Position numbers and translations under genes: made by a program
The notes under the pieces: generated by a model
Told to the model about the DNA's origin: nothing
The model's input: only the letters and a program-made list of their open reading frames with translations
Databases searched by the model: none
Assembly (NCBI GenBank): GCA_030427595.1
Contig: JAUIBX010000007.1
Span: forward strand, 1-41,203
Direction of reading: 5' to 3'
DNA length: 41,203 nucleotides
Source: Bacteriovoracia bacterium
GTDB taxonomy: Bacteria; Bdellovibrionota; Bacteriovoracia; Bacteriovoracales; Bacteriovoracaceae
In this document: positions 10,335-15,194 of the stretch, piece after piece
Position numbering within the stretch: the first letter of the stretch is position 1
Layout: every line of letters starts with the position of its first letter

Positions 10335-11251
10335 TGACCCTTAGGGCTTCTATCGATATTGGCTCTAACACTACTCTTCTCTTGGCTGCAGAAATTGGGC
10401 ATGATGGTTCGTTTATTGAAAAGGCCAATGAAAGTAGGGTGACTAGTCTTGGAAAAGACCTGGATAAGACGGGTGTCTTTCGAGATAAATCCATGAAAGA
10501 CACTTTTAAGGCTTTAAGTGAGTACAAAGACGACTTGGCAAAAATCGGAATAGGGCCTGAAAGCGTCATTGTTACCGCAACAGAAGCCGCCAGAGTTGCG
10601 AAGAATTCATCTGATTTTTTTCAAAAAGTCAGGAAAGAGATTGGATTTGAAGTCACTATTATCAACGGGGAAGGGGAAGCTTACTACACTTCTTATGGCG
10701 TCGTTTCTCGTTCTCAATTAAATGAAAGCAATATAACGATCATGGACATAGGTGGAGCTTCAACTGAGCTTATTCGAGTCTCTGTTAACCCCTTTGAAAT
10801 TTTAAGTTCCATTAGTCTTCCAATTGGAAGTGTTCGTTGTACGGACTGGTTAAAAGAAAAGATCTTTGATCAAAAGGTAGAAGAAATCTTTCAAAACTTT
10901 GATCTTGAAGCTTATAAGACCGATCATCTTCTCTGCGTGGCGGGCTCAATGACTTCTTTAGGAAGTATGATCAAGGGTCTTAAGAAATTTGACTCTAATG
11001 AAGTGAATGGAACTCGCATATCCTTTTCTGATTTCCTAAAGTTTACTAAAAAAATCAAGAAAAAGACTCCTACAGAACTTCTCTTAAAGTTTCCCTTTTT
11101 AGGAAAACGATCCAAGAGTATCGTGGGCGGTGCTTATTTGGGTGAAGTTATAGGAAGTGCTTTAGAGGTTAACACTTTTGAAATCTCCACTTTGGGGTTG
11201 AGATACGGTACACTTTTAGCTGGAGGTATCGATGAGCACTATTGCGAGTAA
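10334..11251 (+). CDS. Ppx/GppA-family phosphatase (short exopolyphosphatase-like form)
   Basis: Ppx/GppA enzymes release phosphate from polyphosphate or from pppGpp; they belong to the actin/ASKHA fold. The sequence opens with the phosphate-binding loop IDIGSNTTLLLAA (residues 7-19), has a central VTATEAARVAKNS segment, the second loop IMDIGGASTELI, and LGLRYGTLLAG near the end. Length 305 is that of the short two-lobed form lacking the C-terminal HD-like domain of the E. coli enzymes. Its start codon shares one base with the mtnA stop (TAATG). The downstream cyclic-nucleotide-binding gene begins inside its last codons, suggesting coupled expression. Substrate (polyphosphate or pppGpp) cannot be told from sequence. 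Confidence 0.88.
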   Translation: MTLRASIDIGSNTTLLLAAEIGHDGSFIEKANESRVTSLGKDLDKTGVFRDKSMKDTFKALSEYKDDLAKIGIGPESVIVTATEAARVAKNSSDFFQKVRKEIGFEVTIINGEGEAYYTSYGVVSRSQLNESNITIMDIGGASTELIRVSVNPFEILSSISLPIGSVRCTDWLKEKIFDQKVEEIFQNFDLEAYKTDHLLCVAGSMTSLGSMIKGLKKFDSNEVNGTRISFSDFLKFTKKIKKKTPTELLLKFPFLGKRSKSIVGGAYLGEVIGSALEVNTFEISTLGLRYGTLLAGGIDEHYCE

Positions 11252-11705
11252 CTTCGACAAACCTGTAAGTTTCAAAAGAGGTCAAGTCATCTTCGCTGAA
11301 GGGGAGGCTTCTAGCTATCTCTACATTGTTGTGTCCGGTGAAGTGCGAGTTTTTAAAGAGAACTCGGGTAAGCTCATGCCCGTGACAATTGTTGGGCCCA
11401 AAGACTTCATTGGTGAGCTTTCTATGTTCAATGATGAGCCAAGAAGTGCCACTGCAATTGCCACAAAAGATACTCAATTGATGATTATAAAGAAATCGGA
11501 CATAAGAAAGGTTTTACGTTCATGCCCAGAATGGGTATCCAATATCATGATCACCATTAGTGACCGTCTCAGAAGTACCGTCGAGGTTCTCAGAGAACAC
11601 CGTATCGTCGATGATCTCAGTGAGGGAGCTGGAGAAGTCACTCCTCAAGACTTAAAAGAATTTAAAAAGAATGTTGATTCTTACCGCTCAAGGAGAGGTC
11701 TTTAA
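11232..11705 (+). CDS. Single cyclic-nucleotide-binding-domain protein
   Basis: The 157-residue protein is essentially one CNB domain: an entry strand VSFKRGQVIFAEGEASSYLYIVVSGEVRVF, then the phosphate-binding cassette GELSMFNDEPRSATAIA, in which the Glu and Arg that hold the cyclic phosphate are both kept, then the closing helices. The tail (residues 115-157) is charged and probably helical. There is no helix-turn-helix, so it is not a CRP/FNR transcription factor; such stand-alone CNB proteins act as sensors that bind a partner. It overlaps the Ppx/GppA gene by 20 bases. Which nucleotide it binds (cAMP, cGMP or another) is not visible. A TTAA-looped hairpin overlaps its stop codon. Confidence 0.85.
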   Translation: MSTIASNFDKPVSFKRGQVIFAEGEASSYLYIVVSGEVRVFKENSGKLMPVTIVGPKDFIGELSMFNDEPRSATAIATKDTQLMIIKKSDIRKVLRSCPEWVSNIMITISDRLRSTVEVLREHRIVDDLSEGAGEVTPQDLKEFKKNVDSYRSRRGL

Positions 11706-11734
11706 TTTAGACCTTATAGCTGAATAATTTTTTT
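11696..11734. terminator. Possible terminator hairpin between convergent genes
   Basis: AGGTCT (11696-11701) and AGACCT (11709-11714) form a six-pair stem with a seven-base AT loop, exactly across the two facing stop codons. A run of eight T follows at 11727-11734, about 12 bases after the stem, further than in a textbook intrinsic terminator. It could work weakly for the rightward transcript. Only 8 bp separate the two genes, so some terminator is expected here. Confidence 0.4.
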
Positions 11735-12139
11735 CTTAGAAAGAGCAGTCATTACTGCTTTGACTCTAGCACAAGCTCGGTCAATGTCTCTGGCCTCATT
11801 GGTAAGCCTTGTGTTCATGACTTTGAAAGCTTGCTCAGCAAATTGCCTTTCACATAAAGATAGAATTTTTCTCTGACCCTGAACACTCAGGCTTTTAAGG
11901 GCCACACCCAAGATAGGTGCTTTTACATAAGAAAGAACTTTTTCAATAGTGGCGTCAGGAAGGTCAACCAAGGCCTTGAACGTTATCGCTGATTCTGCAA
12001 TCTCGTCTGCAAGTTGCGGGTTACGTGGTCTAATCTGACGTAAAAGCCTTTCACGCTCTTCAGGCTCTAGGTATTGGAACATCTCGAGGATCTGAGCTCT
12101 ACCATTAATAAAAACATTAGCTGTGTTGTCTTGTTCCAT
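11714..12139 (-). CDS. Stand-alone FliG C-terminal-domain-like protein
   Basis: The 141 residues align in order with the C-terminal armadillo-type part of the flagellar rotor protein FliG: ILEMFQYLEPEERERLLRQI, then ADEIAESAITFKALVDLPDATIEKVL (FliG: FxDLxxLDDRxIQRLL), then ALKSLSVQGQRKILSLCERQFAEQ (FliG: ALKGASExLREKxLxNMSxRAAE), ending at a helix like the one that completes the FliG C-domain. The FliG N-terminal and middle domains are absent. The acidic and arginine residues of the FliG torque region (ED and DDR in the pattern above) are K, A, P, D, A here, so a role as an ordinary rotor torque subunit is doubtful. The ATG has AAGGA six bases upstream. It lies 25 bp after a coiled-coil gene on the same strand; no flagellar genes are nearby. 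Confidence 0.7.
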   Translation of the reverse strand: MEQDNTANVFINGRAQILEMFQYLEPEERERLLRQIRPRNPQLADEIAESAITFKALVDLPDATIEKVLSYVKAPILGVALKSLSVQGQRKILSLCERQFAEQAFKVMNTRLTNEARDIDRACARVKAVMTALSKKKIIQL

Positions 12140-12164
12140 GACTTTCCTTTAAGGGTTGGCAGTT

Positions 12165-12593
12165 TTATGCGTCTGCGACATCAAACTTGGCTTTCGCCTT
12201 GATAAACTTTTCTCGAGCGTTTTCTAGTGTGCGCCTATGGCTCTCTTTCATGTTCTGAAGTTCGTTTTGTTGAGATTCACTCACTTCAGCGATTTGTTCA
12301 GTGTGTGCCATCTTAAGATTTTTTAATTCTTCAGTAAGACGCTTATTCTCATCTTGAATGCGCATCTCATGACGGCTGCGAACAGTGTTGAGTTTTTGCT
12401 CTAGTTCTGCTTCAAGCGCAGTGATTTTTGTTTCATACTCTTCACGCATACGCGTAAGCATGGCCTCGTTACGCTTAACTTCAGATTCGTAAGTCTTATT
12501 ATTCTTGCTTCGAAGCTTCTTGATCTCAAAGTTATGGCGCTTTTGTTCATTCGCCTTGAACCTTTGAGCTTTGACATGTGAGATATCTGTCAT
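12165..12593 (-). CDS. Small coiled-coil protein of unknown function
   Basis: I do not recognise a family. The 142-residue protein is almost entirely charged heptad-type sequence (Glu, Lys, Arg, Gln and Leu in alternation from about residue 15 to 130), without signal peptide, membrane segment or Cys, so a cytoplasmic extended coiled coil is likely. It starts at an ATG with AAGGA seven bases upstream and ends 25 bp before the FliG-C-like gene, so the two are probably cotranscribed. General resemblance to flagellar export coiled coils such as FliJ or FliH can be imagined but is not supported by any specific motif. The thiolase gene is divergent, with 90 bp between. Confidence 0.75.
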   Translation of the reverse strand: MTDISHVKAQRFKANEQKRHNFEIKKLRSKNNKTYESEVKRNEAMLTRMREEYETKITALEAELEQKLNTVRSRHEMRIQDENKRLTEELKNLKMAHTEQIAEVSESQQNELQNMKESHRRTLENAREKFIKAKAKFDVADA

Positions 12594-12683
12594 CGGAGCT
12601 TCCTTAATTCCTTTGTAAATGCCGTCCTGGCATCTTATATTTAGGGTATCTAATAGGTTGGCTTTACTTCAAGGAGGCAAAAA

Positions 12684-13886: not shown

Positions 13887-15194
13887 TTGAGCGAGAAGAT
13901 AATTTACACAGAGGAAAACCTCCTTCAGTTTGAGTCCTGGTTGGGACTTAATTATGATGCCCTTACATGGCAGGGACGTTACGAGTCTGAGTTTGTTACT
14001 TTTTGGCAAACCTTCTTTGTTGCAGGTCAGTCTCTTGAGCAAATGATGGAGCGTTTTAAATATGCTCTTCTGTATGCGCAAATTGGCCCTCTTCATTCTT
14101 GGTTCACTTGGTTAAGAGATTGCTTCTTTTGTTACACTTTCCTTAATAAGAATATTTCAATCATTGAATTAAGCCGTATTGTGAATATTCCTTATGATTC
14201 TCTGGGTATTATTTTAAGAGAGTATTTTTTAGAGCATTACCCTGAGTACGAAGAGCAGCTTTCACAAAAATTTCAACTCGCTAATCGTATTAGCCCTAAT
14301 CTCGAGTTGACCTATAATCAGCTTGCAGAGGAATTAGGATTTGATGAGCGTGCTCTTCAAAAAAATAATGAATCGGTTCTCAATTCGATGGAGGTAACTC
14401 TTTATCCAGAGTGGCAGAGCCTCAACAAGAAGATGGAACAGGATCTATTTCATCCCAATTTTGACTTTTCTCGTATCAAAACAAACCTGTCATTTACTCG
14501 TCAGCTTAAGCTCTTTAGAGAAATTCTTATTTTTCTTTTGATTGGAGTGGGCTTAGTTTATGGCATTCAAAAACTAAATCTTAAGTGGGAAAAATCAATT
14601 CTCGACCAGATTAGTATTTATGAGCCCCAACTCAATTGGCTTGATACGAGTCTTTCCTTTCAAGATAATGAGGCTAATGCTCGTCAAAACTTTGAGCTTG
14701 GAGCTAGAGAGCTAGATGAAGTTGAAACAAAGGAAAGTCAGTTTGACTCCCTCGCTTTTGGCGATGATATTCGTTACGAAGAGGAGTCAGATGTTGTTTT
14801 AACGAGTTGGGACGCTCTTCCTAAAGATTTTGATACTGTCGAGTTAGAGCAATCTGCATATGAGGAACTTAAAAAAAGAGGTTATCGCGACAGTCGTTAC
14901 GGTAACACTAAGGTGTATCGAGTCCTCATGCGTTCGGTTGACACAAAAACCTCAAAAGATCGTCTCAATAATCTTCTTCAAAAGTATGATGTCACCCGAG
15001 TAGACAATGTTGCGCCAGGAAAACAAGTTCCCGGTGGTATTTACTACAACCTCTATGTTCCTCGCGAATACCTCAAAGAGTTCATGGCCCAAGTGATGGA
15101 CTTTGATGATGCTATTCTCTACGAGTCCAGAACAAGAACTGGTAGAAACCCTCCGGGGAAGAATAAGGTTTTTATTTGGGTGAAAAATATTTAA
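13887..15194 (+). CDS. Single-pass membrane protein of unknown function with HTH-like N-terminal domain
   Basis: No family recognised. The 435 residues fall into three parts: a soluble N-terminal domain (1-205) holding two helix-turn-helix-like stretches (about 90-118, IIELSRIVNIPYDSLGIIL, and 141-162, LTYNQLAEELGFDERAL); one membrane helix at about 212-228; and an outer domain (229-435) with an acidic linker and a compact final section from about 320 (YRVLMRSVDTKTSKDRLNNL, ending WVKNI). The layout, DNA-binding-like domain inside and sensor-like domain outside, recalls anti-sigma or ToxR-like membrane regulators, but this is inference. The start is TTG with AGGAAG upstream, 12 bp after the thiolase. 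Its last eight codons form one arm of a 26-pair hairpin. Confidence 0.7.
   Translation: MSEKIIYTEENLLQFESWLGLNYDALTWQGRYESEFVTFWQTFFVAGQSLEQMMERFKYALLYAQIGPLHSWFTWLRDCFFCYTFLNKNISIIELSRIVNIPYDSLGIILREYFLEHYPEYEEQLSQKFQLANRISPNLELTYNQLAEELGFDERALQKNNESVLNSMEVTLYPEWQSLNKKMEQDLFHPNFDFSRIKTNLSFTRQLKLFREILIFLLIGVGLVYGIQKLNLKWEKSILDQISIYEPQLNWLDTSLSFQDNEANARQNFELGARELDEVETKESQFDSLAFGDDIRYEEESDVVLTSWDALPKDFDTVELEQSAYEELKKRGYRDSRYGNTKVYRVLMRSVDTKTSKDRLNNLLQKYDVTRVDNVAPGKQVPGGIYYNLYVPREYLKEFMAQVMDFDDAILYESRTRTGRNPPGKNKVFIWVKNI

Follow-up and report, generated by a model that had tools for sequence, protein, structure and literature searches.

The window, i.e., the whole stretch of 41,203 nucleotides analyzed in this study, is contig C4 of a 3.8-Mb Bacteriovoracaceae genome assembled into 360 contigs (G000). 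It harbors a minus-strand gene pair, CC and FG, and a divergently oriented gene, c2. Both open reading frames of the pair were found as delimited in an earlier note on this DNA. The following features are of relevance here:

11714–12139, minus strand: FG, 141 residues comprising a FliG C-terminal domain on its own (ARM_C plus C1-6) that has lost its torque charges
11813–11854, minus strand: FG residues 96–109, counterpart of the FliG torque helix according to the alignment, without R281, D288 and D289
11990–12115, minus strand: FG residues 9–50, conserved FINGRAQ segment plus ARM_C helices, a putative docking face
12165–12593, minus strand: CC, a 142-residue coiled coil of no known family, first gene of the pair
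12643–12672, minus strand: sigma70-like promoter pattern (TTG..N..TA...T) upstream of CC
13887–15194, plus strand: c2, 435 residues, divergent neighbor and proposed partner

The Pfam model FliG_C (PF01706) matched residues 35–141 of FG with 46.1 bits against a cut-off of 23.3 (E 6.7e-12), covering positions 2–108 of the 108 profile positions and thus the whole domain. Neither FliG_N nor FliG_M was found in FG by Pfam, and TIGR00207, representing the full FliG with N, middle and C domains, scored 38.6 bits against a cut-off of 226.7. FliG_C was matched by all 40 members of the FG family. Furthermore, a profile of these 40 relatives searched against the PDB returned FliG chains with E-values down to 2.8e-16, and the AlphaFold model of FG (pLDDT 88.9) yielded FliG for all of its top 16 Foldseek matches in the PDB. 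FG comprises the FliG C-terminal domain in full, and no further FliG domain is present in it, as had been read from the sequence beforehand. The lack of a FliG-C profile match, or a predicted structure without the C-domain fold, had been named as results that would speak against this assignment; since profile and structure searches both return FliG, it stands.

Torque-related positions were mapped via the T. maritima FliG sequence to the E. coli FliG numbering (K264, R297). Charges were surveyed in an alignment of 33 FliG, 40 FG and 19 P proteins, the latter being a second stand-alone FliG_C family. Described stator contacts comprise R90/D288–D289 and E98/R281 (PMC12505986). FliG of the Bacteriovoracaceae has kept the charge at all five positions in all 33 proteins. 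The earlier note was right in substance that the torque charges are lost from FG, but the residues it named ('K/A/PDA') were wrong: in the family alignment, K264 is kept as K82, and R281, D288, D289 and R297 are represented by Q99, K106, V107 and E115, respectively. Across the FG family, the D289 position is acidic in none of the 40 proteins, compared to 33 of 33 FliG of the same family; an acid at D288 occurs in few of the 40, R281 is replaced, the R297 position is Glu in 26, and a basic residue occupies the K264 position in 33. Measured by the charged R281, D288/D289 and R297 that FliG uses for stator contact, FG falls short. The missing acid at D289 in all 40 members, together with the usual Glu at R297, makes it very unlikely, as judged from the alignment, that FG takes torque from MotA.

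FG was detected in 70 of 73 near-complete Bacteriovoracaceae genomes, the three exceptions all being aflagellate, and was conserved across the 48 genera surveyed, g33 excepted; many of the surveyed genomes are metagenome assemblies. Phylogenetically, it forms one clade (100/98 support) apart from FliG, P and the FliG_C proteins of other families, the deep branching order being unsure because the FG/FliG/P tree rests on 139 columns. We propose that FG is an old FliG paralog cut down to its C-terminal domain. According to branch lengths, FG evolves faster than FliG. Purifying selection acts on both genes of the pair: comparison of close relatives gave pN 0.15 versus pS 0.87 for FG and 0.15 versus 0.86 for CC. 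The best conserved part of FG is the ARM_C half with the FINGRAQ segment (column entropy 0.88 and 1.68 versus 1.8–2.2 in the rest of the domain). ARM motifs of FliG stack between subunits and thereby build the C-ring, according to work cited in PMC11870540.

CC contains no Pro or Gly, is 40% charged and shows a hydrophobic period of 3.65–3.7. No Pfam or NCBIfam family matched it, in agreement with its previous description as a coiled coil of no known family, and on the same grounds, CC was rejected as one of the described flagellar coiled-coil proteins (FliJ, FliH, MotE). The gene occurs in 66 of the 73 near-complete genomes and in 110 of 129 family genomes. It lies immediately upstream of FG, in the same direction, in 39 of 40 FG loci; the intergenic distance, determined for 34 loci, ranges from −1 to 61 nt and is 25 nt in the window. 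The partnership of CC and FG proved weaker than the earlier note had assumed: FG persists in at least five genomes that lack CC (G032, G034, G146, G147 and G151) and hence does not depend on it, and mirror-tree analysis revealed no special coupling (partial r 0.14 for FG–CC and 0.16 for FG–c2, no better than for control genes). The reverse case, CC without FG, was limited to a CC fragment in the 84%-complete assembly G128. The sigma70-like pattern upstream of CC was present in 26 of 34 loci, compared to 5.9 in shuffles. Control of the pair by FliA was discarded, since a FliA pattern was found in 0 of the 34 upstream regions.

For c2, AlphaFold predicted a helical N-domain, a long membrane helix and a disordered linker leading to an alpha/beta domain at the C-terminus (pLDDT 76, pTM 0.48). 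A search of this fold against the PDB gave no match better than E 0.66, and a single weak DUF4349 match was obtained for the c2 members. The gene was located beside the FG–CC pair in 37 of 41 neighborhoods read, several of them with otherwise broken synteny; in genome G031, it is located elsewhere. c2, which the earlier note does not mention, is the most faithful partner of FG, above CC. On the other side of the pair, a gene for a cNMP-binding protein (11232–11705, plus strand) is convergent with FG and conserved in most neighborhoods; in other families, the operons for membrane FliG and MotAB likewise include a gene for such a protein (see below).

Regarding the flagellum, inspection of the window (41 kb) revealed no switch genes, and in the one-chromosome genome of a relative (G008), the positions of FG and FliG are 0.208 and 2.926 Mb, respectively. 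The earlier statement that FG lies far from flagellar genes is thus accurate for switch genes, although flagellin genes are approximately 30 kb from FG in G008. In the four genomes of genus g33 (G038, G129, G130 and G131; 88–99% complete), no FlhA, FliG or flagellin was found, indicating that this genus is apparently aflagellate; FG, CC and c2 were not found in them either, and pilus-type ATPases are retained. FlhA, FliG and flagellin were also not found in G034, a 1.6-Mb genome of another genus, which is the one exception to the co-occurrence of FG with flagella. It keeps intact FG and c2 and has no CC, and its fast-evolving FG occupies the longest branch of the FG clade. Since g33 has lost the flagellum genes together with FG, CC and c2, and since FG of G034 evolves fast and its CC is gone, these patterns favor a flagellar link, without proving it.

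Our preferred reading, which we put forward tentatively, is that FG represents a torque-dead FliG_C docking module acting with c2 and CC at the flagellar motor or the flagellated pole. FG would no longer trade torque with MotA and would instead mediate protein–protein docking. Its conserved ARM_C face, which in FliG packs on the middle ARM of the neighboring subunit, may bind the middle domain of FliG at the motor or, alternatively, the cytosolic domain of c2. CC could act as a long helical spacer linking FG to another part of the assembly, and c2 would anchor the latter at the membrane. The net role would be that of an accessory scaffold or stabilizer of the motor or the flagellated pole of the Bacteriovoracaceae. 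The FliG_C identity and fold, the absence of FG from aflagellate genomes only among the near-complete ones, the adjacency of c2 despite broken synteny, the loss from FG of charges that the family's own FliG retains (as do, at the acidic pair, the membrane FliG proteins beside MotA), and the conservation of ARM_C were counted in favor of a role at the motor. Counted against it were the retention of FG and c2 in G034 without flagellum genes, the promoter being sigma70-like and not FliA-like, and the mirror-tree values at control level. The idea of a re-used scaffold or FliG-binding regulator, as raised in the earlier note, finds support in fold, conservation, gene order and charge loss. A rotor domain would have been retained for its structure after its torque chemistry was lost, across a whole family of predatory bacteria. 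If its role is flagellar, FG would be a candidate for an as yet unassigned accessory component of the motor in the Bacteriovoracaceae; otherwise, FliG was reused outside the flagellum. In either case, FG, CC and c2 constitute a small gene set for genetic study.

Alternatively, FG, CC and c2 might constitute a membrane complex unrelated to the flagellum, e.g., a polar, envelope or predation scaffold reusing the FliG armadillo fold. This would fit with FG being followed more closely by c2 than by flagella (both genes are retained in G034, which has no flagella), with the lack of a FliA promoter and of flagellar genes nearby, and with the occurrence of FliG domains in proteins other than the canonical one in further families of the phylum. 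However, the set was lost in four out of four genomes of the aflagellate genus although pilus ATPases were kept there, a loss that would then have to reflect a wider change of life-style, and in G034, FG is fast-evolving and CC is gone. This is the main competing explanation, which we consider possible, but somewhat unlikely. Its more far-reaching form, an undescribed Bacteriovoracaceae membrane machine built on the torque-dead FliG armadillo by FG, CC and c2 and serving polarity, envelope or predation rather than rotation, appears unlikely. Another conceivable role is that of a soluble regulator or assembly factor, i.e., a decoy C-domain stabilized by CC that tunes assembly or speed through transient binding to FliG, FliM or the stator. 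A FliG-like fold with a dead torque helix in a small, soluble protein that accompanies flagella in nearly all genomes would suit such a function, but the faithful link to c2 and the retention in G034 are left unexplained by it, and we regard it as distinctly doubtful.

A working second rotor face receiving torque from MotA would account for the shared FliG_C fold and the basic K264 position in 33 of 40 proteins. Yet the other stator-contact charges are all lost or reversed, and FliG_N and FliG_M for binding FliF or FliM are missing. A single MotAB pair is present in Bacteriovorax HI3, a published isolate (PMC12827227), which also speaks against a second rotor face. Being largely refuted by the charge survey, this possibility seems highly improbable. 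That FG is a functionless, decaying FliG remnant is scarcely credible: it is truncated and evolves faster than FliG, but its conservation across the 48 genera except g33, the low pN relative to pS and the fixed gene order refute decay.

Compared to known systems, FG shares with the FliG C-domain the domain, the fold and the full C-domain length, and differs from FliG in lacking the N and middle domains and the stator-contact charges and in being encoded outside a flagellar operon. The E-ring proteins FlgY/MotE/FlbB, which are flagellar accessory proteins, consist of an armadillo-like head joined to a coiled coil (PMC11870540, PMC13023049), a plan resembling that of FG plus CC. However, each of them is one periplasmic protein with an MgtE_N-type head, whereas two genes and a FliG_C head are found here. 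No hydrophobic signal segment was recognized in FG and CC when their N-termini were read by eye, and both are probably cytoplasmic. MgtE_N was matched by 12 of 40 FG members at E ≤ 0.01, and FG of the window reached 17.5 bits versus a cut-off of 25.9. FG was not classed as an E-ring protein, because its MgtE_N match did not reach the cut-off, FliG_C is the domain present, and two genes encode the parts. No description of the FG family was found in the literature searched. For Bdellovibrio HD100, 'FliG, 2 copies' was mentioned (PMC3539863), an earlier sign of extra FliG-related genes in the phylum, given there without analysis of a stand-alone C-domain.

Further FliG_C proteins were detected in the phylum:

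L201 2545–4893, L204 2544–4835, L208 750–3050, L215 2616–4838, L210 742–2628, L212 1322–3151 and L214 2188–3825: membrane proteins with FliG_M and FliG_C, other Bdellovibrionota families
L203 2214–2930, L205 2109–2801, L209 2612–3286 and L213 1874–2581: N-terminal FliG_C and, at the C-terminus of the same polypeptide, a short coiled coil, 224–238 residues, other families
L002 (G000:C320:5828–6133), L105–L119 and L158–L160: P, approximately 145 residues, Bacteriovoracaceae

In the membrane proteins (545–782 residues), the N-terminal half is periplasmic, a single helix crosses the membrane, and FliG_M and FliG_C lie in the cytosol. They adjoin MotA (Pfam, four loci) and MotB (Pfam in L201, by reading in the others), and three of the loci also encode a cNMP-binding protein and a TPR protein. 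The acid at D289 is kept in 7 of 7 of these proteins beside MotA. They may constitute an additional, membrane-anchored rotor for which MotA/MotB would serve as a dedicated stator; they were not found in the Bacteriovoracaceae searched. With FG, they have in common a FliG_C domain outside canonical FliG, and they differ from it in their membrane anchor, the retained acidic pair, their own stator genes and their position outside the FG clade. The FliG_C proteins of 204–238 residues from other families, some with a C-terminal coil, were rejected as orthologues of FG, as they also fall outside the FG clade, and the FliG_C–coil fusion is therefore only an analogy. Among the P proteins, the acid at D288 is kept in many members and that at D289 is not, and the P genes are mostly located downstream of a sugar epimerase-like gene.
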